Below are positions 1-47,780 of a stretch of 64,000 bases of DNA, in pieces. The first letter of the stretch is position 1; each line of letters opens with the position of its first letter. The notes beneath the pieces were generated by a model. The model saw only the letters and a program-made list of their open reading frames with translations. It did no database searches and was not told the DNA's origin. This DNA is from Mesaphorura yosii. Its lineage: Eukaryota; Arthropoda; Collembola; Poduromorpha; Tullbergiidae. The stretch covers positions 1-64,000 of the forward strand of contig WIXG01000369.1 of the NCBI GenBank assembly GCA_009869945.1, read 5' to 3'. Both the position numbers and the translations under genes were made by a program.

Positions 1-3000
1 TTTGACCTCCGTAGTCGTCTCGACACGCCAAATCTTCGCAAAGTACAGCGCCCAGCCGCGGCTGAGCTCGATGACGTGGCGCTTGAGTCCCGGTTTCACG
101 GCGTGCAGGGGCCCACCCGCCTGAATTTGATTTTCCTGCAGGAAGGATCGCATTCGAGCTGCTTCTGCGGGCAGGATTCTGATGTGGGATTTGAAGACGT
201 CGCGAACCACCTGCGAAAAGATGAGGCTGACCGCGAGCGGGGATTGGATGGTTTCCCCGGGGGCGAAGACTTCCTTGCGGAGCCGGAACACGTACGGCAT
301 GCGCGCGTATGTATAATGAGGGCCGGTGCTGGTTGGCTGCGCTCCGGAACCGAAGGCAAAGGCAGCCATGCCATTCCCATTGCCGTTCCCATTTCCATTG
401 CTGAAGCCGTTGTCGTTCATGGCGGCACCGCCATTTCGTCCAGGCGGCGGTGGCGGCGGCGCTCCGTGTTGTAGTTGCAGCAGTTTCGAGCCCCCAAATC
501 CATCATGAGTGTCACGTGGCACTGCGACAGGCCGCACAGCCGCCGGAGGCGGCGGTGGTGGAGGCGCTCCGCCGCCCCCGAGCTTCTCGGCAAGCGCCGA
601 CTTGCGATCTTCCCCAATCTTCTTGATTATAATCTCCTCGTCGAGGGCCGAGCGTTTCTTCACGCCTGCGCTCGCGCCTCGCACCGAACTCGTGACCATC
701 TCGAGCTTCTCCCGCATCTCTGAACTGATCTTGAGCTTGCCGACGAGTTCGCCTCCGAAGGGGCGAGCCACTTTGAAAGGCGTCACTGCGACGGAAGGCG
801 CTGTTGTCCCACCGGCACCAGCACGCGCTGCGGGTTGGTCGATGTTCGATTTGGCCTCCTGCCTCGCCTTGAAGTCGGTAAAATTGTCAGCCCCGCCGCC
901 TGAGCTGGGCTGCGCTGGGCACGGAGGCCAGCGCCATTTCCCGATGCGGACCGTCTTAGCACGGCCGTACGGATCGACGAATGGACGCGAGCCTTGTTCG
1001 ATGAGCTCGGCCGGAAGCGGTGGCGGTGGAGGAGGCTTGCTGGCGTGAGTTCCTGGCCCGCGTGTTGCGTGGCCGGCGTTTCCTGTGCTATTGCCTGCGG
1101 CAGCAGCGGCGAGAAGCTGCTGGAGCGCGTTATTCTGCTGAATGAGCTGCTGCTGAATCTGCACGTTCTGCTGCATCGCTGATTGGAGGAAGGCGGCCGC
1201 ATTCGCAGGCGGCTGAACGCTGGCTCCCTGGGCAGCCACAGCCAAGTTGGGCGAAAAGAAGGGCGCGGGTCCGGACGCCGTCGCACTCGTTCCCCCAGTC
1301 ACTCCGCCTCCACCGCCTTTGATTCTGCTGCTCAGACTCCGCACGTCCGACATGTCGTCCAGGCCGAGGACGGGGCTGAAGAGGTCGTCCAGAAACTGCT
1401 CTACGTCCGAGCCGACGGAGGGCACTCGCACGCGGCGGACGTGCGACGCGAGGCTTGGCGCTTCGCTCGTGTCGCTCATGGCACTCGATTTGACGTGGTC
1501 TCGGCCAGCGGCGCTGTACAGCGACGTGTTGGTGCTGGACCGCTTGCTTTTGATGAAGCGTGGGTGCCCGGAGCGGTGGCCAGGCATCTGCTCGCTGATG
1601 GTCGTGATTTGGTCTTCGCGGACGCCGCCGCCGCCACGGCCAAGCGGAGGTCCACGCCCATGTCCACGCTCACGTGTGACAGGATACAATTCTTCGTCAT
1701 GCGAGGAGACCGACGAGCCTCCTCGTGAAGCTCGACCGTCGTCGCCCTCTTCTTCCTCATCGTCCAGATCGAGAAGCTGTTCTTGGCTGCTGGCGCGGTA
1801 GCGATCGTTTAGCTTGGACGGGCTCAGCCCGTAGCCGCTGCTGGAGAGGTCGTCCAACGAGCGCGTGTGAGCTGCTGCATGCGCGCTTCGAACATTTCGC
1901 ACGTTTCCATTTTGTAGCGCAGCCGCAGTCACAGCGCTTCCGTTTGCGTTGCCATTCATTCGAGCTTTGTTTGGATGCCCATTTTTGCTTCCGCCGCGTG
2001 CTCCCATTTGAATTGCTTCATCAGTCCGAATTGGGACAACATCGCGTTCTCGCTCGCGGGCGTTCATCCAATTTTCAACCCCGCCAGCCGCTGCCGCACC
2101 AAACAAGAATCCAACGCTCGTTCCGAATTCCAGGCTGCCCACGACGTCCAGGACGAATCCACTCGACTCCAGTTCGTGTTCGTCCAGCTCCAGATTCCAT
2201 CCATTCAGTGTTGAGCCCACCCCCACGCCCGCGCCGATGCCGCCGTGTCCTTCGTGCGCGAATCTTCTCGCTGCAGCGGCCTGCGCCAGCTCACCTACGG
2301 TCGTCCATGAGTGCAGTTCGAAAGTCTCCGCCACGCCGTCAATATACTGCACAGGCAGCGCCAGCGCCGACCGCGATTTATTACAGCGGGCTTCCAGAAG
2401 GCTGAGCGCCGAACGCTGCTGGGCGTTGTGCACGACGCTTCCGTACGACTGGAGAAGTTTGCAGTGCAGCAGCGGCGCGTACGCACTGGACGCCGCCTCG
2501 TCGACGAAATTCAGGACGTACTTCATCAGCCAGGCGGACGGTCGGACCATGCTGAGCAGATTTGCGAGCATCGCAAGGCCCCGCTCGCGGTTCTCGACGC
2601 TCGGGTTCCCGATGCACTGGTTCAGCACCTGCACTATCGCTTCGTCCTCCGCCCGAGCGACGTAGTTGATGATGGCTGCCTGGCGGGGTTCGGGCAGTGC
2701 AGGCAGAGGCGTGTTCATGTAGCGAAGCACGAGCTTGAAGACAGCCTGTGCCTCGCCTGTGTCCGAGTTCGGAAGGAATGGCACGCTGATTGGCTCCCGC
2801 TTCATCCCGAGTATCTTCTTGATTTCTCGCTGGAGGCGGGCGATGCTGTGAGCGCTGTACTGCGGCAGTGCCACTGCACTCACGCCTGCGCCACGGGCTG
2901 TCGTGCTCGTCGGCAGCGCCACTTTGACGAAATCCATCGCGGCGGACGGAAGACCCTCCAGTTTCTTAAACGTGTACGCGAGCTGTGGTGGAATTTCCAA

Positions 3001-5659
3001 GTGATTCAGTGGCAGCATGCAGGAAGAGTCCTGCAGGCGCTTGCGGGCTTGGTGCCTACGCGCCCTCCGCTTTCGCCAGCTCTTCTGTAGTGTAATGGCG
3101 CTCTCCCGCAGTTCGGTGTACTGCTTCCTCTCCTTCCGCATGCGAGCCAGGCTCTGAATGAGGAGCGTCGCCCTTCGCAGCCGCGAGTAGGCCTTTCGCT
3201 GGAGGTACCCCCGCACAGCCGTCTGAATCCGGGTCGCGGCCGCCTCATGTATGCCGTACAGCTCTTGCTCCAGGCGTTGATGCAACGCCTCGCGGAGAAA
3301 CACTTTGCTCAGCCCAAGCTGGAAGTCGTTGTGCTTGCTGAGGATCAGTCGACTCGCATCACGGGCGTTGAGGCTGTGGAGGAACTCGCGAGGCGCGAGT
3401 GCTTGGAACCGCTTTGCGAAAATTGTGTACTCCAGCCGCACTGCATACCCGTGCTTTCTGATGCGGATCGTTTCCAGGAGTCCGGAGTAGCGAATCTGTT
3501 CCAGAACGAGGGCGGGGTCGAATGTCTCCGCCTGCTTCTGGGAATTCGGCTTCAGGCAGCGAACGAACCACGGCGCCTGCTTGCTCATGTTAGCCAGCAG
3601 CTGCTGGAGCGAGTCGTGGAATCGGGCGGCGATCGTCGGCGCTCGGGGTTTGACGGTCGGGCTGCGCGGAGCTCCGCCGCTACCGCGTGCGTGGGCGTGT
3701 CCATGCCCGTGGCTGGCAGACGACGGCGCTCCTCGCTGCATCGATCCGCTGCCGCTGTGGTGGTAGTGCTGGAAGATGCGCCCGACTGTCGGGTGGGCGC
3801 TCGTCGCAAGCAGGCGCGCAACGTCAAGGCGCAGTGTGTCTCGGTTCTTCTCCAGGAATCCAGTCACGTGATACGTTACGGCACCAGCGTAGTGCTTGAC
3901 CGTGAACGAAGGCGCTGACAGACGTGGTCGAGCGTAATGCGGGCTCAGCGCGTGGTTGTAGTGAGCTTTCTCCAAGAAAGAAGCATCTGTACCCTTCGGG
4001 AAATTAGATTCGTCGTCAAGCAAATGGAGGAGCCCGACAGGTTTCTTCGCGAGAAGATGCAACACGGGCGCGTTGTCGACGTACACGATCGGAGCCCAGT
4101 CAATCTTCTCCCTGGCGTACTCGGCTTGCTCCTGCTTAAAAATGTACTTGTTGTGGTAGTGCTGCAGCGACTCATTCGCGTAGTTGATACACAGCTGCTC
4201 GAAGCTGTTGTTCTCCGCCTGGAGGTCCTCAAACCCGAAAATGTCCAGTACAGACAAAGTAAGTCGAGTCTCGCCCTTGAACACGATGCGATTGACACGC
4301 GAGACGAGCCAGCTGAAGAGCGAGCTGTACAGCACTTTGGCGATGGCGTCCCGCGAGTCTAGACTCTGGTCAATTGTGAGCGGAGTCGCAATGCGGTCGC
4401 GCTCCCGGCCGCGTGGGGCTCCCGCCTCGGTGATGCGTGTCGTGAGCGCCTTTTTGATTCCGTCGACGGAGATTTGGAGGAGATGCCCAATCCACGCGAT
4501 TTCCGCATCCGAGCCGATCTCGACGCCTTCCTGCCCGTGCTTCAGCGCTTTGCGGTGGAAGTACACGTTGCCCAAATGCAGGACGGAAGCCAGAATCCGG
4601 AGAATGACGTCCACGTCGTCGGCTCCGAATCCGAGGATCTGCAGCGCGCTCATAAGCGCTTTATAGTCTTCGCCATCGTTCTTCGTTGTCGCGACGCGGG
4701 AGGCGCTGTTACCCTGATTCAAGTAGAAATACTTCTCCGCGCTCGTGAGCCCGTACGTCTCCTTCTGCTCACGGCTCAGTCCTCGCAGCACTTCGTAAAA
4801 GACGTGATAGTTTCGCTCTTCTGGTGATTGAGTGCAGATCCGCGATTTCTCCAGCAAATATTCCGTGATTCGGGCTCCCGTGATGGAGCCTCCGTTCTCG
4901 CTGTAGTACAGCTGCACGTACTTGCCGAATCGCGAGCTGTTGTCGTTCTTCACGGTTTTAGCGTTTCCAAACGACTCGAGCAGCGGTGAAGCCTCCAGAA
5001 TTTGCTCGGTGATGAGGTTCGAAGGGCACTTGTTGACGAGGGCGAGGTACCCCAAAATGAGCTTTGTCGACTCGGTCTTCCCGGAGCCCGACTCGCCGCT
5101 GATGACGACCACCTGGCCCGCCTTGTCCTTCATCATGTTGGCGTATGCTGACGAGCCGATGGCGAAGAGATGTGGTGGGAGTGTGCCCAGCACGCGGCCT
5201 TCGTACTCCTTGACAACTGCCTGGCCGTACAGAGTGTCTGACATGCGGTACGGGTTCACGGAGATGAGGATGGAGCCGATGTACGTGTAGATGAGTCCCG
5301 ATTCGTACCGCTGCTTGATGTTCCAGAGCAGAGACGGCTCGCAGAGGTCTGCCAGCTGGACCATGTCTTCGACGGGCGTGTCGCTGTCATCCAGCCGCTT
5401 CTTCACGGCCGCAGACGGGAGTTCAAACGTATGGATCGTGGAGGTCGGCTCGTCTTGGACGGACAGCACGTTGCCTTGCTTGTGGAACTCGAGCACTCGG
5501 CCGGGGACAAAGAAGGCGGGTGGGCCCGTGTCGGGAGCCAGCAGCCAGACCGGGTCTCCCTGCGAAATGCGAAATAAATGCAAAATTCAAGACAAATACC
5601 GCACAAATGACTGTGTCGAGGTGAGGACTTACCGGTCCATACTCCATTTTGTCCAGCAT
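1..5659 (-). CDS. Myo15: Unconventional myosin XV (MyTH4 type), 3' end outside window
   Basis: Actin motor of the myosin XV class (Drosophila Myo10A/sisyphus, vertebrate MYO15A), expected in filopodia or other actin protrusions. Exons read: 5633-5659 (nine residues, starting MLDKMEYGP) and a single exon from 5559 to the window edge; the joint gives GPGDPVWLL, the usual myosin N-terminus. Visible in order: P-loop GESGSGKT (about residue 164), switch I NDNSSRFGK, switch II DIFGFE (about 448), about three IQ motifs (about 782-843), a MyTH4 domain (about 880-1050, with KREPISVPFL), a FERM-like start (PVYIDGVAETFEL), then a long Pro/Gly/Ala-rich linker. The reading frame stays open over the whole 5.56 kb. 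The remaining SH3, second MyTH4 and FERM domains should lie beyond base 1. The start is the first in-frame ATG before a good donor; further upstream exons cannot be excluded. Class confidence is high because of the motor plus MyTH4 order and the FRLRKEVF-type segment near the edge. Confidence 0.87.
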
Positions 5660-8532: not shown

Positions 8533-10143
8533 CGCAGTTACCGTCGCGGCTGCAGATGCAGTTTTAGTTTTGCAATGATTCAACTCTTCCGCCTGACGTC
8601 CACGGATTTGAAACTTCGGAGCTTGTTTGCGACTTGTATTTATGCTAGCGGACTTGCGTGGCGGCGGCGGCAGGTCCACCAAAGCAACAGGTGCATGAAA
8701 TACAAGACTTCGTGTGCGCTCGTGTATTAAATTCATTCAACTTCAACGATCTGGGTCATGATTAATGAAATCTCCGTGCTAGGCAGGCAGGCGGTGAAAT
8801 CAATGCGAAATCTGCGCTTGGCGAACGAGTAGCGAGTGGTGGCCCAAGTACAGAAACCTGACCCTTTTGTCACAAAAACATTTCTCGCCGACGTAACCAA
8901 AGAACTCTACTGACAAGTCATCAAATTCACGCCCAGACGAAGCTGAAGGTGATTGGCTGTTCGATCAGGACGCAAAGATATTAGCGAAATCAAGAGTGGT
9001 AAATTACTACCCTGGACCCGAGAACGAACCGGTCCTACAGCCCATCATCTTTGATTTACCGCCTCCAGTACCACCGCCACAGAAGGGGTCTGTCAGTCTG
9101 TATTTTGTACCTTTCACCGTTTTTGGCTTCATGATTCTAGTTTCGATATTTGCATCCTTTCTTGAATTATTCCTTTTGCATTTTGCATCGCACATATTGT
9201 CAACTTCATAGCTCTTGTGCGTGCACGCTTTAGGACGTGCAAATTCTAGATCCGATTCATCCTAGATGTTCTCAGAATTCACCTGTGTGATAAGTGTACT
9301 AGAAGTGTAGTGTACATAATTGAATAGAAGTAGAAATAAGCATAGAAGTTACTCCTTCGTCGTCAACTTAGTTTCTTAGGAATAGTTTCTAGTCTCACTA
9401 ATCCTTGTGTAATGTTGTTCAATAATAATTTTTGCGAATAAATACAATTTCATGCGATTGTACGTTGTATGGCAGCCAACGCTGTTGATTGCGTTCTGTT
9501 CACTTCGCGTGTCTCCGCAATACGAATAATTCAACGAGGTTAATGAAGGGGATGTATTTTCAACATTTATTTTCGCGAACCGCCGCAATAGTGGCTGGTG
9601 CGTCGATCAAAACATTCGTGGTTTATAACCATAAAGTCTATTCGTGCTATTGGAGGCGCCGGGCTCGATGGTGTCGATGTCAATATCTAACACACAAACC
9701 TACCATCTATGTGACATGCGTGATTCCCGTTCATGAATTCTCAAATTAGTACTTTTCTGGGCCTAAATTGTCATTTATCATAAGACATGCAATAGCACGG
9801 GGGTTCCCATCCAGCTTCACGCACAAATTTACACTTCCTGATGTACGTGCCCACTTTGACCACCTTCATGAAGCAAATTAAGCATGGAGAAATTAATTTT
9901 TTAGCTGTTTCATGTAAAAATGCTACAACCGATCAATTTATTGCTCCTCACAGTTATTACAATAGCATTATTCATATCACATTTAAGCGAGCCAGGCACC
10001 ACGAAGTTTTATTGCCTTTGACCCTCGCACAATAAGAGCCTTGAATTTAACCAAAAACAAGGTGGGCAAAGTCCGTTGCTTTCATTTCGTTGGAGAAAGG
10101 CAACCAATTCGGTAACATCGTCGAAGTCGAAAATACGTTGAGA
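8533..10143. other. Intergenic, no gene supported
   Basis: The only long frames start with non-ATG codons (for example about 8996-9211, hydrophobic end) and have no splice or domain support. The 5' part must carry the promoter of the lipocalin-like gene; the 3' part that of the chemoreceptor at 10144. Confidence 0.45.
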
Positions 10144-11410
10144 ATGTGCTCGAATCAATCTCTGAAGTTGTACAAGTTTCTGAGGGACGTCGGCCACAAG
10201 CTGTACTTTCTCCCATTCAAACTGGTGATCGAGGAGCCTGGTCGTGGACGGATGGAGTACTGCCACGAGAATCGGACACGAATTTGTCGTGCCGCCACGC
10301 TGTTTCACATGCTATGGAAGATAATCGTAATGTTCGCAATTGGAATGGTCTACGATCGCACGCACAAAGTTCGCATGGCCTTCAGGTCCCAGTATTATTT
10401 CTTCCTCACCTGCGAATGCATGGCCATGTCATACCAAACGTGCATTTTTCTCTACCCGAAAAGGCTCTACGAAGTGGAGAGAGAGTTTATTCGTTTTCTG
10501 AGCGGAATCAGTAAGAAAATCAGTACAAAATCAATTTATTCATTTATTCGGTTAGTCGCTAGTTGCGAAATTTTTGCTAATTGCAGATAAGCTGATTCCC
10601 TGTGATAAGGACGGTGTCGAGCTGTACTTGCATGGCTTCACTCACGTTATTTTCAGCACCACCCTAACAATTCCTGTCCTCGTGCTCCTGTTTCTCTATC
10701 ATGATATGCACTTTTTTAGCATCCTGCGCTCGGATTGGTGGCCTACCAATGCACTGATCGCCACGATATTCATGGTGGAAATCTTTTATGACTGGCTGTC
10801 AGTTTTCGAATTCTGCAGTCTTGCCCTTCTCTACTTCAATTCCACGTGTCGCTGCCTTCGAAGAATGAAGTACGTAGCTGTGACGAATTAAGTTTGCAGA
10901 ATTTGTAAGGCAGATTTCTTTCTCAGGTGGACTACAGTCAATAAAACCGAACACCGCGGACGGCGCAAGGCAGAGTTATTCAAAATGTACCGGGCCCATC
11001 AAGTCATGAACAACCATGCAATGGGCGAAGGCAAGCACATGATCGGGCTCGCAATAGCTCAAAGTGCACTCCTTCAAATCTTCGCACTACTCCTCGTCAT
11101 TCGCTATCACTCGCGTGCAGGAATCATTCTGACCAATGCTGCTGCTGGAACCTTCCTGCTCTGCCTCGTCATTACTATGCTCCTGCTCTATCTCGAAAGC
11201 CTCGTTGATGTTCTGTCGGAAGAATTCATCAACTCGTTTGTCCGCAACGGAGCGAAGCTGACTCCTGTGGAACGAAAGAGCTTGAAAGCGTTTCGACCGA
11301 TGTACACGCCAGCTGGAAATTTCGGCCCGATCACTCCTCACATGTCTCTGCATTTGGTGAACGAAGTCATCATCAAGAATGTGGTGGACTTGCTTTTAAT
11401 GTCTGACTAG
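10144..11410 (+). CDS. Chemoreceptor A (gustatory-receptor-like)
   Basis: Three exons, 10144-10510, 10587-10869 and 10927-11410 (introns 76 and 57 bp), give 377 residues. The protein has about six or seven hydrophobic segments, e.g. FHMLWKIIVMFAIGMVY, VIFSTTLTIPVLVLLFLY, IAQSALLQIFALLLVI and a long one near FLLCLVITMLLLYL. Length, topology and the absence of any other domain fit the insect gustatory/odorant receptor superfamily; the usual TYxxxxxQF end motif is missing, so the call is family-level inference. The end has the pattern RPM-x5-G-x3-PIT-x2-MSL, shared with the genes at 12384 and 21082. The paralog at 21082 has identical exon lengths (367, 283, 484 bp) and phases, showing tandem duplication. 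The ATG at 10144 aligns with the paralog start. Confidence 0.72.
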
Positions 11411-12060: not shown

Positions 12061-12383
12061 GAATGTAGCACTGGTACACATGTTTTGATCATCATACCTT
12101 GCCCTTACTCTAATCATCATCACTACACTTGTTGCATTTAAATTTATAATTCACTCATATCTGTCGCATAATCTTAATCCCTCCTTTAATTAAGATGGCT
12201 GTCTTGAATTCCACTCATTAAAATTCTACCTGTACACGCAATCAATTTAAGAGCAATCTCCTGTCGCATGCAACAAATAACGTCGTTTGCATAAATTTTT
12301 AATTATGAAGTACAGAATTTGAAGGCCAAGCTGTACGAACTTGGAATAGTATCACGAAGTGCACCAGAAAAGCACAACTGGGA

Positions 12384-13619
12384 ATGTTGGCGCAAATTTT
12401 TGCCCGAATTCGCCTTGTTTTGGAGCACCTCAATCCTGACATCCCTCAAAGTGACCAACGTGCCTTAAAATGGACATATTGGGCATTCGCTTGGCTTTCT
12501 CGCGTTTGCAGAGTAAATTTAGTGTATTGGAATGAAGAAACGTGCACGGTGGTTCCGGTACATCGCTCGGAATCCAGGTCCCGTTGGATAGCTTGGACAG
12601 TTGCAAACACTGTTACCATAATTGTTACCACAGCTGTTACTATAGTAACACTGGTCAACTTATCAACCGTAAACTGGGGCGCGAGTAGTGCAAATGACCT
12701 GCAGTTAACATTTGAGCTTGTACTCTTAAGTTTCTGCTCACTGTACTCCATCTTTTCTGTACATGGCGCGTGCCAGATTCAATCATTTTGTGATCTATTT
12801 AATTATGCTACGCGTGCATTTGAAAACACGCACAGCCACGACGCGGGCGCGCCGCGTCATCTAGTGGACTTCGACATCCTCTTCACAATTACAATAGTTG
12901 TGGGTCAACTCTTGATTTGTGCGGGCGTCACGGGCTTTATGGTTTTCTACACTGTAGACTGCCAGCTCAGCATCTTATCAATAGTGCTACCAATCTGTGA
13001 CACGTCCACACAACCGCTACGCCCTCTTTGGTATGCAGCCAACATATTTGTATACACCATACTTGCGCAACGTTTGCTACTCCAAGGATATATGGTTATA
13101 CCAATCCTTGCTATCGGACATCGCCTTGTTCGCGTCACCATGGAAAATGGCTTGAAGTCGAAATCACAGCCAAACCCACAGCTGATAAGTACACGCCACA
13201 AAGGTCTTTATCGGTATGCACGTCGTTGTGATGAAGAATTCAGCCTCCTCATTGCATTCCTGTTAGCCCAAATCGCTGGATTCATTATCCTGGAAAGCTT
13301 TTATCAAATACGTGCGGATATCCATCCCCTGGTACGTGTGTACCTTAGCCTTGGTTGGGCTACAATGATATTTGCCTTCGCAATTGTGGCGGTTGTGATC
13401 GGAGAGTTGAGTTCAAAATTCGGAAGCGTGTCCCGACGAAGAGGCGGAGAACATCCACACTTAGTGGTCACAAATCATGCAAGAGTTGTGTACAGGAGCC
13501 TGGTCCCCATTCGCCTGCATGTGGGTAACCTGACTCCTATCAGTAGACATACACCGCTATCGCTAATGTATCGTACGTTAGATTTACTTGTGTCGCTCCT
13601 TTGTGGTACAACTCTCTGA
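12384..13619 (+). CDS. Chemoreceptor B, single exon
   Basis: One open frame of 411 residues with about seven hydrophobic segments (WIAWTVANTVTIIVTTAVTIVTLV, LLSFCSLYSIFSV, LFTITIVVGQLLICAGVTGFMVFYT and others, each only partly quoted here). Its C-terminus (SLVPIRLHVGNLTPISRHT, then DLLVSLL) follows the same pattern as the ends of receptors A and C, which places it in the same family even though it has no introns. A poly(A) signal AATAAA (13619-13624) overlaps the TGA stop, so the 3' UTR must be very short or use a later signal. Intron loss or retroposition could explain the single exon. Function (contact chemosensation) is inferred from family only. Confidence 0.66.
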   Translation: MLAQIFARIRLVLEHLNPDIPQSDQRALKWTYWAFAWLSRVCRVNLVYWNEETCTVVPVHRSESRSRWIAWTVANTVTIIVTTAVTIVTLVNLSTVNWGASSANDLQLTFELVLLSFCSLYSIFSVHGACQIQSFCDLFNYATRAFENTHSHDAGAPRHLVDFDILFTITIVVGQLLICAGVTGFMVFYTVDCQLSILSIVLPICDTSTQPLRPLWYAANIFVYTILAQRLLLQGYMVIPILAIGHRLVRVTMENGLKSKSQPNPQLISTRHKGLYRYARRCDEEFSLLIAFLLAQIAGFIILESFYQIRADIHPLVRVYLSLGWATMIFAFAIVAVVIGELSSKFGSVSRRRGGEHPHLVVTNHARVVYRSLVPIRLHVGNLTPISRHTPLSLMYRTLDLLVSLLCGTTL

Positions 13620-21081: not shown

Positions 21082-22364
21082 ATGTGCTCGATTCAGACGC
21101 TAAACTTGTACAAGTCCCTGAGGGACCTCAGCCACAAGTTGTATTTCCTGCCTTTCAAAATGGAGATGCCACAGCCTGGATTTGCACAAGTGGACCAATG
21201 TCACCAGAAGAGGGTAACAATTTGTAGAATTGTTGTTCTCTTCCCCATCCTTTTTAAAGTCATCCTCGTGTTCACCATTGGATTCATTTACGACCTCACA
21301 CACGACATCGGAATGGATTTTAGATCACAGTTCTACTTTCTGTGCACCGTTGAATCCATGGCCTTGTCGTTTCAAGTGTGCATGTTCCTCTATCCGAGCC
21401 GGCTGTTCAAAGTAGAGAAAGAGTTTCTTCGTTTCTTGAGCGAAATGAGTAAGTGGGAAGTTAGGTTAGCCGCATTATGGCCAGCAATCTTTATCAAAAT
21501 AATTCTATAATTAACTGTAGATAGGATCAACCCCACTGAGAAAGACGGTATCGAGTGGATCATGCACGCTTTCATTCACACCATTTTTGGCGTGTCGCTT
21601 TCAGCCCTCCCGATAGTTCTCTTCACACTTTACCACGACATACATTTCGCCGCCCTCTTGAGGTCAGAATGGCTACCGCTTAATGTGTTGACCGGAATAT
21701 TTTCCATGGTGGTAATATTCTTTGATTGGCTGACTGTCTTCGAATTCTTCACGTTGGACCTTCTCTACTTGAACTCAACCTGTCGTTGTCTCTCTAAGAT
21801 GATGTACGTATACGCAATTAAATTAATTTTGTCATCGTTTAACCTTATTGCTAGTAATTTAACAATTTCACCAATTTCAGGTGGACTCCAGGCCCCACAC
21901 ATGAGCAGCGAGGTCGACGCAAGGGCTTACTCAAGATGTATCGAGCCCATCAAGTTATGAATAATCTCATAATGGGCGAGGGCAAGCATCTGATTGGAAC
22001 TGCTAAAATTCTGAGCGCGTTTCTTCAAATTTTTGCACTCCTTCTCGTAATCCGATTTCATAAGCGCGCTGGAGTGCTTTTGACCACGGCGGCTGTCGGG
22101 ACTCTTCTGCTTGCGGTCGTCCTGACCATGCTTCTCTTCTATTTGGAAAGCCTGCTGTACGTACTCTCGAACGACTTCCTCAGCTCTTTTCACAGGAATG
22201 GTGCAAAGCTGGAGACTTTCGAACGGAAGAGCTTGAAGGCTCTGCGTCCGATGCAGGTGCCGGCTGGAACGTTTGGCCGGATAACTAGCCACACAGCCCT
22301 GCGATTGTTAAACGATGTCATTATCAAAAACTTGGTGGATCTACTTTTAATGTCTGTTGCTTAA
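21082..22364 (+). CDS. Chemoreceptor C (paralog of A)
   Basis: Exons 21082-21448, 21521-21803 and 21881-22364 (introns 72 and 77 bp) give 377 residues, the same length, exon sizes and phases as receptor A. The two are clearly paralogs throughout (MYRAHQVMNN identical; LESLVDVLSEEF against LESLLYVLSNDF). The membrane pattern is conserved while introns have diverged fully, so the duplication is not recent. Open, unbroken and with conserved splice sites, so likely functional. Chemosensory function is inferred from family topology. Confidence 0.72.
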
Positions 22365-38673: not shown

Positions 38674-39749
38674 CTACTTTGTCCCTTTGCCCGCACCCAC
38701 TTTGGCTCGATCCTCCGCCAGCGTGAATGATCCGTGTCTGCCAACGCCCTTAACGAATTCGGTGGCGCCCGGGACAGACTCCTGCTCCAGGACTTTGCTG
38801 CCATTTTCCATCTCGTTCCTGATCGCGTCTTCAAACGACGTTGCTTGGAATGTTGTGTAGAACGCGTTTTCTCGGTCTTTGAGCATGCATTCTTGCGGGT
38901 ACTTCATGAGTTCTGTGGCCAGTTCCAGAGCGCCTTCCAGCGCCGTCTTCCCAGGCTTCCCAGGCACCAGACGATTGGCCAACCCCATCGCGTACGCTTC
39001 CTTGCCCTGCACAGGTCGTCCAGTCAGAATAATATCCAGCGCGCGACTGAGTCCAATCAATTGGGGCAGGCGGACTGTGCCTCCGTCGATCAGCGGGACT
39101 CCGAAGCGCCGGCAAAAGACCCCCATGGTCGCCGATTCTTCCATGACGCGCAAGTCGCAGAGCAACGTGAGCTCCAGGCCTCCGGCAACGGCGTACCCGT
39201 CAACGGCTGCGATCACCGGCTTCTTCCACCACTTGCGCGTAGGGCCAAGCGGGCCAGCCCCATTCGGTGCGGCCGGGTCCAGGAAATATTTCTCGTATTC
39301 CTTAGCCGCAGGAGTTCCTGGCAGCATGCCGTGCGACACGAAACTGAGATCCCAACCTGCGCAGAACGTCCCGCCTTTCCCGTGCAGAATTGCGACCGGC
39401 GACGAAGAATTGTTCTCAAAATCATTGAATGCGGCAATCAGCTCGTGGGCCGTGTCTGGATTGACGCAATTCCGTTTCTCGGGGCGATTTATTCCGATCA
39501 GCGTGATTCCGGACGGCTTCTGCTCGACGATGACGTTCTTGTTGGCAGCTACACACAAACAAACACGATAGTCGATTATTGCTTCCAGTCAATTTAACGG
39601 GTGAAGCATCAAAAATCGGTCATTTCATTTCATTTTGTGCAGTGATTATGTTGCTTACCGGCTCTGACATGGACTGAAGTGGATAGCAGGCGGCGAGGGA
39701 GCCCACCTGTGCCCACGACCATGGCCCGAAGAGGTGGCGGAACCGGCAT
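38674..39749 (-). CDS. Mitochondrial crotonase (enoyl-CoA hydratase/isomerase), copy 1
   Basis: Exons 39749-39659 and 39548-38674 give 321 residues. Exon 1 (MPVPPPLRAM, RRLLSTSVHVRA) has the Arg/Ser/Leu-rich look of a mitochondrial presequence. Crotonase motifs: NRPEKRNCVNPDTAHEL, oxyanion-hole strands GKGGTFCAGWDL and DGYAVAGGLELTLLCDLRV, then the helix GVFCRRFGVPLIDGGTVRLP. Family members hydrate, isomerise or hydrolyse acyl-CoA thioesters; the exact substrate cannot be read. The CRRFGVPLIDGGTVRLP block is the form I associate with bacterial-type ECH rather than the classic mitochondrial ECHS1. A paralog lies at 42735. Gene intron 110 bp. Confidence 0.86.
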
Positions 39750-40334: not shown

Positions 40335-41651
40335 TTAACCCAAACCCGAGCTCTTGCCTGACGATGCATACAGAAACTGTACAATGATAATCGTGTATGT
40401 CAGCACAAAGCCCAGGACAGTCGTCACGAAACTTGTCGATAGCACAAAGAAGCTTCCGCCCTTCATCGAGAGTGCGTTCAAGCTCATGTCCATCCGGAGC
40501 GCTGAGATGCTGGCGCACGAGAGCCGATGCTCCTGAAGCCAAGCCCTGTCCCGGTTAACCTCGCTCGCGACCCACTCGTAAAACTCTTGCCCTTTTCCAT
40601 GCAGCCTAGCTCCTAACCATGCTATCATAACAAATGCGACAGTAAACGAGCTCATACTGATGACAAACATGGCATTGGTGAAGGGCGACCACGATGCAGA
40701 GGTAAGGTGCTGGGGAATCGTAGCAATCAGCCCAGGATAATACACCAGAAGCTCCGCCACTACCAGGACGGTCATGGGCCCAAACACAGCGTTCGTTTTC
40801 TTGAACACGGCTTTTAGCTGCTCGTATTTTTCTAGGACATGCCTAAAATCCTGGCAACTCATGTAAAACACCCGGAACTCGTCCATCAGATTATGAAGCA
40901 AGGTTGCGACAAGGAGCTGGATGGGGATTATGGAGTACTGCATTGCGATGCAACTGATTAACCCTTCGACATGTACAGAGGTCACCACAGTCGCTAGAAG
41001 CGGGTTTCGAGTCCCACTCGGGATCCAGTACAAACGCATCGCTTCGTCCATTTGGCTCTCGAGCACAACGCTTACGTTCTCCGCTTCACGCAATCCGGGA
41101 ATTTCGTTCCATTTTGACGACGGAATTGCAAAGAAAAGCCAGAAAATGACACAGAAAGCCATCGCTCTGTTTCTTCGTAGTGACTCGCTACTTGTCTCTT
41201 GGAAACCTGACAAGATGGTCGCGATCTGCTCCAAGACAGGCGCAGCAGTCCATCTCATATGCACAAGGACGAGCATGTCAACCACCGAAACAAATGCATC
41301 AATCTCATAAAACCACTTGATCGAAATCCCGTTCCTGAAATTCCTTTGTGCTTCGGCCAAGTGCTGAACTGCATTGCAACACACTTCGTACAAGACGAGG
41401 GCGTGTATGAAAGCGCAGATAAGCTTGTGTGCTTTTGACGCCCGTGTCCTTGGCCCGGATTCCTGTTGGAATCGCGGAGCGAATTCGGCAGCTACGACAA
41501 GTGAAGGCGGCAACGACGACGGGTGTGTCTCTGCGTGGTGCAGCGCGTGTGTCGGCAAACGAAATGGGTTCAGGCACAAGAAATAGTTTACGTTGAAAAG
41601 TGTGGCAATGTTAGACAGATGATGATGATGGGCTCGAGCTGTTGAGCCCAT
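40335..41651 (-). CDS. Gustatory receptor
   Basis: A single-exon frame of 438 residues from the ATG at 41651 (an earlier in-frame ATG at 41816 would add 55 residues without hydrophobic character). About seven membrane segments (ICAFIHALVLYEVCCNAV, FCVIFWLFFAIP, YSIIPIQLLVATLLHNL, MTVLVVAELLVYYPGLI, NAMFVISMSSFTVAFVMIA, SFFVLSTSFVTTVLGFVL). Near the end it carries LTYTIIIVQFLY, matching the insect gustatory-receptor signature TYxxxxxQF. Likely a ligand-gated cation channel of taste or contact chemosensory neurons; ligand unknown. It lies between two crotonase paralogs. Confidence 0.85.
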   Translation of the reverse strand: MGSTARAHHHHLSNIATLFNVNYFLCLNPFRLPTHALHHAETHPSSLPPSLVVAAEFAPRFQQESGPRTRASKAHKLICAFIHALVLYEVCCNAVQHLAEAQRNFRNGISIKWFYEIDAFVSVVDMLVLVHMRWTAAPVLEQIATILSGFQETSSESLRRNRAMAFCVIFWLFFAIPSSKWNEIPGLREAENVSVVLESQMDEAMRLYWIPSGTRNPLLATVVTSVHVEGLISCIAMQYSIIPIQLLVATLLHNLMDEFRVFYMSCQDFRHVLEKYEQLKAVFKKTNAVFGPMTVLVVAELLVYYPGLIATIPQHLTSASWSPFTNAMFVISMSSFTVAFVMIAWLGARLHGKGQEFYEWVASEVNRDRAWLQEHRLSCASISALRMDMSLNALSMKGGSFFVLSTSFVTTVLGFVLTYTIIIVQFLYASSGKSSGLG

Positions 41652-42249
41652 TTCCCGGGTGGTTCTGATTGAGGACTGAAGGTAGAATTGGATGGAAACA
41701 CTAAGTACCTCCTTGCTCTCAGATTGTGTGCATGTGCTCTGTTTTGTGATTGACAGGACACCACACATTTCAATTTCATTTGAGCTCAGGTTTATTAACG
41801 TGTCAAAATTGATCAATAAATACTGTCAAATGTCAAAATCTTCTCATTGAGCTCAACAGACATTTCCATTCGGTGAAGAAACACGTTTCAATGAACAATG
41901 GTACAAGCTTAATAGCCTCTCTAGAGCTGTAATGGGCTACTAATTCCAACCTGTTCCAAATTACTACATTACTCGTACGAGTAGTGTCTTACGAACGGGA
42001 ACTAAGCAGAACTCGTCCCTGTACACGCACAAGTACTCCCCGAAACCTGAAACTGTACAATAATAGTCGACCAAGTGAAGCACAGCTTTGGAGGAGACTT
42101 CGAATAGGACTATGGAGTGCATGAAAACACAGCCAAGTCGATGGACGATGTTGAGCAGAAATTGGATAAAATGACTCGAGCCGGTCGTCGTCGTCCGGCT
42201 GATAATCCAATGGAGATTGAACTGGTATGTTTAAAATGTTTAACAGCCA
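41652..42249. other. Intergenic, receptor promoter side
   Basis: No gene supported. A short plus-strand frame at about 42144-42230 (MDDVEQKLDKMTRAGRRR) ends at a possible donor GTATGT, but no partner exon could be found. Confidence 0.4.
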
Positions 42250-42734: not shown

Positions 42735-43853
42735 CTAGCTTTTGGAATTCTTGGCTGGTTTTACTGGCTTATTGTCCTCCATTTCATGCACCTTGACTCC
42801 GCCGATCTCGTCTAGATGAAACGACCCATGCCTTCCGACCCCACGCACAAATTCAGCGGCGCCAGGCACCGATTCCTTCGCTATCACTGTGACTCCGTTC
42901 TCAAGCTCGTTGCGTATCGCGTCCTCGAAGGAGCTGGCCGAGTACATCGCATAGTATGCGCTTTCTCGATCGCGGAGCATGCATTCTTGCGGATACTTGA
43001 TGAGTGAGCCGGCCAGTTGCACGGCTTGGCCCACAGCTGTTCCAACAGACGTGATTCGGTTCGCGAGCCCGATTTCGAACGCTTCCTTCCCTTTCACGGG
43101 TCTTCCAGTCAGGATCAAGTCCATGGCGCGGCTAAGTCCGATCAGATGCGGGAGTCGCACTGTCCCTCCATCGATCAGCGGGACCCCGAACCGTCTGCAA
43201 AACACGCCCATGACTGCAGTTTCTTCCACTACACGTAAATCACACATCAACGCGAGTTCGAGCCCTCCAGCGACGGCGTATCCGTTTATCGCAGCAACGA
43301 CGGGCTTCTTGAAAAATCTTCTGGATGGACCCTAAGTTATTATTCAAGCTGTTAACAGAATGGATCATTCAATCGTACTAAGATGTTCTCAATTCAATTT
43401 ACCATTGGGCCAATTCCTTTCTCAGCACTCGTACCCATGAAGTAGTCCATGCTTGACGCGTCACCCGTTTCTCCTTTTCCGGACAAAAACTCCAAGTCGT
43501 ACCCAGCACAAAATGTCCCTCCCTTGCCATAGAGTACAGCTACTGTCGAATTTGGGTCGGCTTCAAATGTGGAGAAGGCGTCGATGAGTTCATGCGCTGT
43601 CTCTGGATTGACACAGTTGCGCTTTTCTGGTCTATTGATCGCGATCATTGTGATTCCTCGTAATTCCTCGACCACCACATTCTTCCCTGTGGAAAACCGA
43701 TTACAATAATATTCAACTATTTCGGGAGAACAAAATGAAAATCATAATGGATTGATTACGGGGATTAACAGACGATGTTGATAACGACCTGACAAAAGCA
43801 CCGCAATTTGAAGTTGAAGCTATTTTTCGTAGGAGTCTAGAGGAAACTGCCAT
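42735..43853 (-). CDS. Mitochondrial crotonase, copy 2
   Basis: Exons 43853-43760, 43686-43403 and 43331-42735 give 324 residues. Exon 1 (MAVSSRLLRKIASTSNCGAF, then SLSTSS) reads as a mitochondrial presequence and its phase fits the second exon start RKNVVVEELRG. Core motifs mirror copy 1: NRPEKRNCVNPETAHEL, GKGGTFCAGYDL, NGYAVAGGLELALMCDLRV, GVFCRRFGVPLIDGGTVRLP, YPQECMLRDRES. It has an extra intron (43402-43332) inside the region that is one exon in copy 1, and a shorter loop after the first oxyanion strand. Substrate unknown. The two copies are an old local duplication, same orientation, with a gustatory receptor and a GST remnant between. Confidence 0.85.
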
Positions 43854-44618: not shown

Positions 44619-47600
44619 ATGGTCATGCCTCTCGAACTGATCATCTTCGTAATCTTGTGTAAGTTGAAGCTCACAGCGTACGTACTGGCCTTTTGCGTAT
44701 AGTATTAAAGTATCATTTAATTTACCATTACCTCTCCTCTCCATCTGTCAAACTTCCAGGTTTCATCATTAAGCGATCATTCTTGGAGCCAGTACCTTCT
44801 TTCTTATCACCTGTGTCATTTGATCAGAACCGTAAGTAAATTCATATACAACAACAAACTGCACTGGAGACTGTGCCTGGGTCGTAGTCGTAGCATTGAA
44901 TATGAAATCACCGTCTGTTTGACATTTACGCAGGACTTCAGTCATGGCAGGATTACTACGGGACCTGCAAAACAAACCCTCCAGAAATTGGAGTGCAAAA
45001 AGAGCAAGTGCTTCAATATCCTCTCTTCCTGCTATTACAAAGCCAGGATACAGCTCAGGCGGTGATGATGGATCCTAACTACAGATTTCCTGCCCTCCCA
45101 TTCCAGTCAAAAGTGCCAACTCCAATTAAGTTAATATTCGAATCCGACGCTTCATGTACTGCCGCCTCAATAGAGGAGGTTACTTGCTTAAGGTACAGCG
45201 TCAATGTGACGGACACCGAGAAGACATTATTCTTCGATGCGAGAAGTCCAACGCGTGACTACTTCGTCTCCTATTACATGAATAGAACTGGTTTCCCTTT
45301 TCGCCCGTCTAAAAAATCGGAGATTAATTTCCAGCTGAACAACCAAATTGAGTTATCACATGTTCGAACATGTAAGTCAATGCCAGCTTAAGAAGAAATC
45401 AAGCAATCGTTTCCAGAGATTAAATTAACTTTATTCTGTGCAATTTTTGCCTAGTGACCTTGTCTGTTAATGCAAATCAGCAGAGGAAGCAGAGTGCATT
45501 CAATGGCTTGGGACCAATCGATGATGCAAATATAAGCTTGCGGATAAATGTTGACCTTCCGTACTACTTCATTAACGCTGTGTTTCTTGGAGCCTCACCA
45601 GAAACGCCACATTTCACATCGCATGAGCTTTCAGATGGACGACGGTAATTTAGTCCTTTGAAAGGCCTTCCAGAACACAGGGTTCTATGCAGTTGGTCTT
45701 AGATTTCATGAATTACGCAGATATCCAATGGAGATTTACATGTACTTTGCAAAAGAATTTTGCACGTTACCGACATGTACCGTTCAGCTCGTTGTGCTTG
45801 TTGAGGTCAGTTCTAAGTGATATACTTATACTTATTGCTTTCGGGTGGATGCTTGTTCGATTTACGTAACCTCTCTTGCACTGCTCATGTTCAGGAGTCA
45901 GACACGGAGAACGAACAAATTAAGCCTGTCATTGAGATGCTTGGAGCTGCAGCTGGACAAGAGGCGTCCGGGCTTTACGAAGAAGAGATTAAATTCATTG
46001 AAAAGTATATGTTTGAGGGCCTGCCTTCCTTCGCCAACGATTTGTATCAAAGAGACTATACGGCCGGGAATAATTACTCTGTACAAATCTGGAGTTTAAT
46101 CAACAATGCCCTGGAGCGAGTACATTTGGTAACGTAACAAGAGTAACAACTTAAATAACGTGGTCACTGGTCAGGTTTAGGTGAAGCAATATATTTGGTA
46201 TGATTTTATGATTTACCAGGGTCATGCGTACAGAGTGATAGCAAACGAGAAGTTTGAACGTCGAACGAGTGTGGAGCGGCAGTTTGCGGTAGCAGAGCAG
46301 AACTTGATTCAGAAATGCCCGTTCTTCGACCAAAATGATGCAGACTCAAGCATAAAGGCAGTTGTACGGGACATGGCAGCGTTTACGACTATTTACAACG
46401 AGCTCCTGGAAAATGTTTATAATCTGACGCAGTTAGTTCAAGGGCCATTATTTGGTGGAAGAGGAGGAATATTTCTGGTAATAGCCGTTAACTGAAAACT
46501 AATAATGCGATTTGTTATCGATGCGATTCGATGTTATCTTAACAGTACGCCGACGCTTCCCTTTTTTCGAGCCAGTGGTACGCGAATTTTTTGTCTGCCT
46601 TGACAAACGCCGCCGCCGATGTTCTTGAAGCTATCGATAAGGCTTTCGAGGGGTTGAACAAACTAGGCGGAAGAATCTCTACGCAGTCATTCAGCGCAAC
46701 TCAACCAGTCCGCCTAGGCCTGGAGGTTGACGCTTCTCAACAGGTTTGTTAATACTGCCACTGCCACCGGCCACTTGCGTGCACCAGAAACATGCTCCTT
46801 CCTTAATATTTTTACATGGCTATGGCTATGGCATGACCTTACAGTTCAATTTCAACCACACTTCACGGAGAAAGCATTCCATCTTGGAGACGACGTTTGC
46901 GGACTGGCGCCAGGCGATCAACACGTACGCATACTACGGCTTTCACGTCGTCGCGCCAAGAAAACGAGATGTCAGTGACTTTGCCCAGCTTGCTGGATGG
47001 GCAGACAACGTGTACCAGCAGTTAAATGTTTGGAAGGATGCGTTGGAAGTGTTGCCGGAATACTATTTAACTGCAATCAGGGACATGTCGGTGAGAGTCG
47101 ATGAACCGGACTATCCGCAACACTGCAACTCAAAATGTCTATAATTCTAATAATTTACTCTTTCTGGTTACGAATACAGAAGTTTGTTAGTGAAAAGGGA
47201 TATTTGCTCCAGCAAAAGGCGCGAGATACAGTTCCAAGAGTTCAGCTGCGGAAGGACTTTCAAGTAAGGATATTTAAGGGTTCCGATAGTTTTGGGTTAG
47301 AAATGAAATACGAAACAGTGTTTTATCGTCGCGTTTCAGATCTCATGGTTGATTCCAAGTTTTGGTGGACATTACGAGTACAGCGGATCAACTCCTTTTC
47401 CTCCATGTCACCAAACATCCAGAACGATCGTGTTTGAACGGCCAATCCAAATGTCACGCTCGCAAATTGAAGCACTCACTCGGATTCCTACCAGCAAGAA
47501 CCGCGACGAAGATTTGACAAATACGCGACCGCCTTTCCATAAGATTGAAGATCTCACTCGTGACAACCGAACAGTGCCGTTGATTGTCAAGTACGACCTG

Positions 47601-47780
47601 AAGAATCCGCAATGGCTGGGCGAAGGCGATGGTTTTCATGAGAACTCAATTGAACGGGCCAAAAGGAAAAAGACCAAGTCTCTTGCGAGCCCGACGACGG
47701 CGGCAAGGCCTCGACTTTGGCTAGGAGTTGAATTCGGCACCGTTCTCAGTTGGCTTTTGCCACTCATGTTAACAACCTGA
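44619..47780 (+). CDS. Secreted carbonic-anhydrase-related protein with large insert
   Basis: Eleven exons give 761 residues: 44619-44658, 44760-44831, 44934-45371, 45455-45644, 45721-45805, 45895-46128, 46220-46477, 46546-46743, 46845-47090, 47180-47263, 47340-47780. N-terminus MVMPLELIIFVILC is a signal peptide. Alpha-CA hallmarks: HELSDGRRYPMEIYMYF (like GSEHxxDGxxYPxELHxVH, about residues 240-256), VQLVVLVE, and near the end ISWLIPSFGGHYEYSGSTPF plus PPC and IVFERPIQMSRSQIEAL. The three zinc His are replaced (Ala, Phe and Tyr by alignment to human CA2), so it is a CA-related, non-enzymatic protein. Between residues about 300 and 615 lies a mostly helical, family-foreign insert. The hydrophobic end (GTVLSWLLPLMLTT) suggests a GPI anchor. 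Exon 7 could instead begin at 46181. The first two exons rest on phase and consensus only. Confidence 0.66.

Follow-up and report, generated by a model that had tools for sequence, protein, structure and literature searches.

A carbonic anhydrase-related gene of the springtail Mesaphorura yosii with a lost zinc site, a seemingly interrupted domain and a probably helical insert

Carbonic anhydrase (CA) folds are used for binding in the CA domains of RPTP gamma and zeta and in the CA-related proteins (CARPs); zinc histidines are lacking in CARPs VIII, X and XI and in the RPTP gamma and zeta CA-like domains. CARPs are described as CA homologs without zinc histidines (PMC5437132); among them CA-VIII is reported to act on the IP3 receptor, and CARPs are reported to aid a lactate transporter (PMC7215520, PMC6609565). 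An inactive relative from Toxoplasma gondii, TgCA_RP, has a signal peptide and a glycosylphosphatidylinositol (GPI) anchor, two of three zinc histidines replaced (by Phe and Gln) and a CA domain at 121-445, and stands nearer the Plasmodium eta-CA (PMC5437132). CA domains cut in two are described from mollusc shells, where a Gly-X-Asn repeat separates the CA-like domain of nacrein; in two oyster relatives the repeats within the CA domain are acidic, and the zinc histidines are reported as kept (PMC4066178). In N66, an active CA, the pieces G69-G221 and D490-K554 flank a repeat at N245-G437, and the zinc histidines are residues 156, 158 and 181 (PMC6599672). The nacrein repeat is placed C-terminally by PMC5618409, PMC6639325 and the introduction of PMC6599672; an oyster nacrein-like protein has its insertion halfway along (PMC5618409), and a mussel nacrein-like CA is without the repeat and has a changed zinc-binding domain (PMC6639325). 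We analysed a gene at 44619-47780 on the forward strand of contig WIXG01000369.1 (C369) of Mesaphorura yosii, within a window that comprises the first 64,000 nucleotides of the contig, using the genomic DNA of one assembly (93 Mb, 1127 contigs).

We consider it rather probable that this is one gene for a secreted alpha-CA-related protein in which the zinc site has been lost and a loop has expanded into a helical module, the whole acting as a binding scaffold. The gene model, the CA descent of both halves, the loss of the zinc site and the place and helical character of the insert are supported by the analyses below; a disulfide, secretion, a GPI anchor and a binding function are what we infer from the protein sequence.

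Gene model and intron positions

Splicing of eleven exons rebuilt the protein reported in the first-pass annotation, 761 residues followed by a stop codon at 47778-47780. All ten introns are GT-AG and measure 68-102 bases. Summed over all exons, stops number 33 and 38 in the other two frames; the used frame is open up to its final codon. With hexamer statistics learned from the window's other long frames, the used frame scored best in 10 of 11 exons, the exception being exon 10 (28 codons), with small margins in exons 3, 8 and 11. Joined, exons 6-10 scored +0.18 in frame and -0.22 and -0.23 out of frame, higher than the slightly negative CA exons (-0.15 for exons 3-5, -0.08 for exon 11); 29 of the 30 intron frames fell between -0.18 and -1.09, and one at +0.03. 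The exon 1 reading frame is already open three codons 5' of the start. The motifs quoted in the annotation are present, HELSDGRRYPMEIYMYF at residues 240-256 and the second, ending in GSTPFPPC, at 638. The sequence observation is confirmed, and 44619-47780 is best read as one protein-coding gene. A decaying CA copy that drifts without function would agree with the strong divergence of the N-terminal half and with the failure to find a close relative in the genome, and yet eleven open exons against 33 and 38 stops in the other frames, the frame preference in 10 of 11 exons and ten GT-AG introns make such a copy very unlikely.

Both protein ends are hydrophobic as read from the sequence, which upholds the hydrophobic C-terminal tail of the annotation, and seven sequons occur, three of them within the insert. 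A GPI anchor is a possible feature of what may be a secreted, inactive CA; a Glu within the tail, uncommon in GPI signals, speaks against it.

The C-terminal part is recognizably CA. PF00194 matches residues 608-679 only, at 43.2 bits against a cut-off of 27 (E 4.8e-11), which places the protein in the family. Its closest PDB relatives are the RPTP gamma CA-like domains, followed by other solved CAs; the RPTP gamma alignments also pick up DGRRYPMEIYMYF, at a mere 0.4-0.6 bits. We built a CA profile from ten sequences, nine of the same genome and human CA2, with L004 left out; in both the profile and the pairwise sets, the piece from the CA gene C439 carries Arg for Ser at one exon junction. 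This profile matched residues 607-700 at 39.3 bits (0/300 shuffles as good), and in pairwise comparison the C-terminal part scored above all 100 shuffles against each of 12 CAs.

For the N-terminal part, the argument comes from introns. In this genome C439 is a CA gene of the usual kind that retains all three zinc histidines; its splicing was rebuilt. Introns 2-5 of the gene studied here, of phases 1, 1, 2 and 0, match four of four successive C439 introns in order, phase and landmark, and on this ground we take the N-terminal part to be homologous to CA. Intron 2 splits a codon four residues ahead of the first Trp, [R]LQSW here and [A]PSHW in C439 (the split-codon residue in brackets), with the same landmark as [G]PDKW in C571 and [G]PAFW in C183 and C98; its phase in C439, C571, C183 and C98 was derived from acceptor and frame. 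Intron 3 lies at SHVRT[L]TLSV here and at NNGHT[I]QVQL in C439. Intron 4 comes directly before the Tyr of YxME, in GR[R]YPMEIYM here, GF[S]YAMELHM in C439 and GN[G]YVMEMHM in C241. Intron 5, of phase 0, follows the next strand, VVLVE/ESDTENEQIKP here (a slash marks the intron) and GIFFT/ATKKDNPALSP in C439, with equivalents at GIFFN/IGGEHPEM in C571, SVLLQ/ in C183 and VTLYE/LSSENNFALEP in C117. The next C439 intron, ISQRQ/LSVF, is absent from our gene. By a rough estimate, which is no formal probability, four phases would match by chance about 1 time in 100, with position uncounted. Intron position and phase can expose CA ancestry that sequence profiles miss.

Sequence comparison of the N-terminal part gave mixed results. 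Residues 184-304 scored z 5.5 against C47, the best of the CAs compared (0/100 shuffles as high), z 3.2 against L002, z 1.5 to 2.6 against L001, L005, C439, C241 and C183, and z 0.8 against L006; the C241 alignment is out of register, hence chance. Several points weigh against CA descent of this half. Residues 1-275 searched alone matched no Pfam family. The profile gave 3.8 bits for residues 20-300 and 5.3 bits for residues 180-300, each equalled by 1/300 shuffles, and within the whole protein it flagged the N-terminal stretch at 3.1 bits, below inclusion. Residues 184-304 reached only z -0.2 to 0.2 against human CA2, C571, L003 and C117, and exon 3 did not rise above noise against any of 12 CAs (z -1.1 to 1.6). 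Among the introns, the intron 3 match comes from C439 alone, in C571 and C183 the place of intron 4 is taken by one six residues on, after Glu, and C241 is without an intron at the intron 5 position. On sequence alone the N-terminal half is undecided as a CA, and the intron coincidence carries the case. The annotation had read both outer parts as one alpha-CA domain: for the C-terminal part this stands by PF00194 and the profile, and for the N-terminal part by the introns, its sequence being near noise.

These points also bear on whether two neighbouring genes were mis-joined, such that only exon 11 and the last part of exon 10 would derive from CA, and the N-terminal part with the helical exons would belong to a secreted protein unrelated to it. 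The confinement of the Pfam match to residues 608-679 and the lack of similarity between exon 3 and any of the 12 CAs would suit two genes. We nevertheless think this unlikely, given four CA-like intron landmarks and phases upstream, the complementary profile ranges and the candidate cysteine partners in both halves described below, and introns of just 68-102 bases throughout with no stop in the used frame.

The interruption of the CA domain

The two profile matches meet at one point. The N-terminal match ends at profile position 166 at residue 304 or, for the piece as a separate query, at position 157 at residue 295; the C-terminal match begins at position 165 at residue 607, or at position 169 at residue 611. 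The ranges are complementary, and therefore this seems to be a single CA domain interrupted by about 300 residues. The split site corresponds to what we take to be the loop after the helix at about residues 155-168 of human CA2. The boundaries given in the annotation, exons 6-10, are not exact: the CA alignment continues into the first residues of exon 6 (ESDTENEQIKPVIEMLGAA) and takes in the last ones of exon 10 (VQLRKDFQ), and the purely insert exons are 7-9 only. We also considered that exons 6-10 had been shuffled in as a unit, which the flanking phases (0-0) would permit; the idea was rejected, since CA sequence gives way to insert within exon 6 and returns within exon 10.

The same exons might be an optional cassette, with one transcript joining exon 5 to exon 11 and encoding a short CA-related protein beside the long form. 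Introns 5 and 10 are both of phase 0, so that such a join stays in frame, but skipping would remove two stretches that lie inside the profile match, the CA-like beginning of exon 6 and VQLRKDFQ in exon 10, and we regard two forms as unlikely.

An additional expansion, not reported in the annotation, lies in exon 3, which has 146 codons compared with 54 in the matching C439 exon, or about 92 residues more.

The insert, some 302 residues, is probably a mostly helical segment. Over residues 291-607 the mean hydrophobic moment at 100 degrees stood at z 4.1, with 0/400 shuffles as high, and the helical insert of about 300 residues claimed in the annotation is borne out in length and periodicity. 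By exon, helical periodicity was z 3.0 in exon 6, 4.6 in exon 8, 1.1 in exon 7, 1.6 in exon 9 and 0.0 in exon 10; exon 3 leans to strand periodicity (z 2.0), and exons 4-5 and the C-terminal part show neither helix nor strand. Single-sequence AlphaFold2 models, which cover two of the five exons, place helices at 3-32 and 38-73 of exon 7 (predicted local distance difference test, pLDDT, 65.1; predicted template modelling score, pTM, 0.32) and at 13-34, 43-69 and 72-81 of exon 9 (pLDDT 66.1, pTM 0.36). Two points count against a helical insert: exons 7, 9 and 10 taken alone are not significant for helical periodicity (55, 31 and 187 of 400 shuffles), and the two models are of low confidence, such that they would indicate helix and not a fold.

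The composition of the insert is A 10.6%, L 9.3%, N 6.3% and G 5.0%. It had no Pfam match up to E 10. Its PDB matches were 21 distinct photosystem I PsaB sequences (E 0.0073 to 0.75), and psaB was also matched in NCBIfam (E 0.014); both were taken as chance. A search of the same genome showed no second copy among its matches, the best for the insert being residues 359-459 to C909 (E 0.26), and no internal repeats were seen by eye among exons 6-9.

Zinc site, cysteines and genomic surroundings

The first-pass annotation had stated that all zinc ligands are missing and had named Ala, Phe and Tyr at the positions of His94, His96 and His119. The absence holds: Tyr253 is anchored by an intron at the His119 position, and neither of two registers puts a His at His94 or His96. 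Tyr stands as named, while Ala225/Phe227 is one of two registers, the other, from the computed alignment with C439, being Val226/Leu228. The only histidines of exon 4 are His236 and His240, with no HxH in any register. In addition, the CA motif GSLTTPPC reads GSTPFPPC here, and Thr199 is Pro. The protein has none of the His94/His96/His119 set of an active alpha-CA, nor the Thr199; it falls among the CARPs, taken as CA homologs without one or more zinc histidines. With the catalytic centre gone (no zinc histidine, Thr199 to Pro), no CO2 hydration is therefore expected, and the protein should be without CO2 hydratase activity.

Conceivably the CA cavity was rebuilt for another chemistry, with the insert as a lid or dimer module. 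Plant CA-like proteins offer a parallel, having an unexpected role in alkaloid scaffold formation (PMC10700139). Here the old-site residues are Ala or Val, Phe or Leu, Tyr and Pro-Phe, and a single sequence does not point to a new polar centre, so that a neofunctionalised enzyme appears improbable.

The cysteine pair of extracellular CAs may be kept as C49-C638. Cys638 aligns ungapped with the Cys of TTPSC in C439, and Cys49 lies near the Cys of WGGVC, with 7 residues to the first Trp compared with 4 in C439; these positions are presumably those of the C23-C203 disulfide of extracellular CAs. Against a fully paired set, there are 7 cysteines after Cys14, an odd number that leaves at least one unpaired.

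In the history that we propose, the gene would descend from an intron-bearing CA gene. The catalytic centre would have been lost, with no zinc histidine left and Thr199 replaced by Pro, a mostly helical module of about 300 residues would have arisen by growth of the surface loop after the CA2 155-168 helix, and exon 3 would have gained about 92 residues. The product would be a glycosylated, membrane-tethered or secreted binding protein, in which the CA core would hold out the helical module to make specific contact with a partner; a disulfide between C49 and C638 would perhaps fasten that core. The features of the gene are collected in the table.

Table. Features of the gene at 44619-47780 (positions in the window)
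Feature	Position	Strand	Basis
Exon 1: start codon, hydrophobic N-terminus MVMPLELIIFVILC, probable signal peptide or anchor	44619..44658	+	Sequence
Exon 2: stretch ahead of the CA domain	44760..44831	+	Splicing
Exon 3: CA-like domain start, W42 four residues past the split codon, C49	44934..45371	+	Intron 2/3 landmarks, phases as in C439
Cys49, candidate partner of Cys638	44966..44968	+	C439 has WGGVC and TTPSC
Exon 4: region of the CA His94-x-His96 strand	45455..45644	+	Intron landmarks, pairwise alignment
Ala225-Val-Phe-Leu228, facing His94-Phe-His96	45577..45588	+	Register
Exon 5: YPMEIYMYF...VVLVE	45721..45805	+	Intron 4 phase 2, intron 5 phase 0
Tyr253 at the His119 position	45737-45739	+	Anchored by intron 4 before YxMExxM, as in C439 and C241
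Exon 6: first 20-29 residues CA, remainder insert	45895..46128	+	Profile match to residue 295 or 304
Insert, residues ~305-606 (~302), cut by introns 6-9, all phase 0	45982..47236	+	Profile co-linearity, helical periodicity
Exon 7: two predicted helices	46220..46477	+	Single-sequence AlphaFold2
Exon 8: strongest helical periodicity, z 4.6	46546..46743	+	Hydrophobic moment
Exon 9: three predicted helices	46845..47090	+	Single-sequence AlphaFold2
Exon 10: insert end, CA resumes (VQLRKDFQ)	47180..47263	+	Profile
Exon 11: CA C-terminal part, basic linker, hydrophobic tail, stop	47340..47780	+	PF00194, own-genome profile
Cys638 in GSTPFPPC; CA Thr199-Thr200 replaced by Pro-Phe	47406..47408	+	Ungapped alignments
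LWLGVEFGTVLSWLLPLMLTT, GPI-signal-like tail	47715..47777	+	Sequence only

Other CA genes of the genome were also inspected. C47 (L027, C47:79500-84500) encodes a degenerate CA in which IHIKYG and MELQF replace FHFHWG and AELHL. Counted by eye, it has about 43 residues more than CA2 in the same loop, with a phase-0 intron just before, and its hydrophobic tail ends, also by eye, in KALLLVLILLTLSF. The search of the genome with our whole protein did not list C47, and since that query did not match it, the C47 loop is not detectably like the insert. A further gene with a degenerate zinc site (YGTCHWD, FPLDVQL, NGTRTNTPDC) lies at about 2950-3560 of the stretch L026 (C117:174000-179000). Six CA genes have the whole domain in one open frame (C456, two in C175, C99, C333 and C674), alongside CA genes that have introns; the six are possibly retrocopies that expanded.

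Elsewhere in the window, an open frame of 1862 codons (1-5586, reverse strand) runs off the window start, intron-free beside intron-rich genes. It carries GESGSGKT, which we take to be a myosin-like P-loop. G+C is 62% in the first 4 kb of the window and 44-51% in the other 4 kb blocks. On the reverse strand, two neighbouring frames at 38674-39588 and 42735-43331 match enoyl-CoA hydratase (PF00378) and are apparently tandem copies; by eye, 43394-43741 resembles a first exon belonging to the second of them. A chemosensory receptor frame (Pfam 7tm_7, 26.8 bits against a cut-off of 26.6), in keeping with an arthropod, lies at 40335-41825 on the reverse strand, and hydrophobic many-span frames lie at 12309-13619, 21858-22364 and 10051-11410 on the forward strand, the first two with no Pfam match. 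The 7tm_7 frame and the many-span frames are perhaps a chemoreceptor cluster.

Comparison with split and inactive CAs

The annotation had stated that no CA-related protein with such an insertion is known; this did not hold, nacrein being a precedent in its CA domain split by a Gly-X-Asn repeat (PMC4066178). At the level of titles and abstract openings, for the most part, the literature yielded no large complex helical insert in a zinc-less CA. Searches that combined "carbonic anhydrase domain" with "domain insertion", or a Collembola or springtail genome with carbonic anhydrase, returned nothing, and a Daphnia CA study (PMC4393933) makes no mention of "insertion" or "intron".

Among inactive relatives, the protein resembles CARPs VIII, X and XI and the RPTP gamma and zeta domains as a CA homolog without zinc histidines, but unlike the matched RPTP chains, which have 264-273 residues and no large insert, it has one, and all three histidines are lost. 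TgCA_RP is likewise an inactive CA relative, with the signal peptide and GPI anchor being only candidates in our protein; no inserted helical domain is described for TgCA_RP in the part of the report covered (PMC5437132). Within the same genome, C47 is also a degenerate CA expanded at the same loop, and the best pairwise match to residues 184-304 (z 5.5), but its insert is much smaller and its first zinc histidine is kept (RIHIKYG).

Nacrein and N66 are alike in architecture, each having a secreted alpha-CA domain that a long insert divides. The place of the split is about the same as in N66, as far as its published coordinates allow: G221 lies 40 residues after His181, which should correspond to His119, and the split here lies 42-51 residues after Tyr253, a comparison by arithmetic and not by alignment. 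Unlike in nacrein and N66, the insert is complex sequence of helical character, not a Gly-X-Asn or acidic repeat, and the zinc site is lost.

If our reading is true, split CAs extend beyond mollusc shell proteins, one CA-fold loop tolerates a module larger than the domain itself, and the gene becomes a test case for a dead enzyme turned carrier of a new domain. More tentatively, and with a good deal of doubt, the CA fold may here serve, without catalysis, as a display scaffold on the surface of arthropod cells that carries an undescribed, independently folding, all-helical recognition domain in the loop where molluscs placed shell-mineral repeats, in which case loop expansion would be a repeated route to new CA functions (here, in C47 and in nacrein). 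Split CAs are already known from mollusc shells, and the complex, probably helical insert in a zinc-less CA would be the new part.

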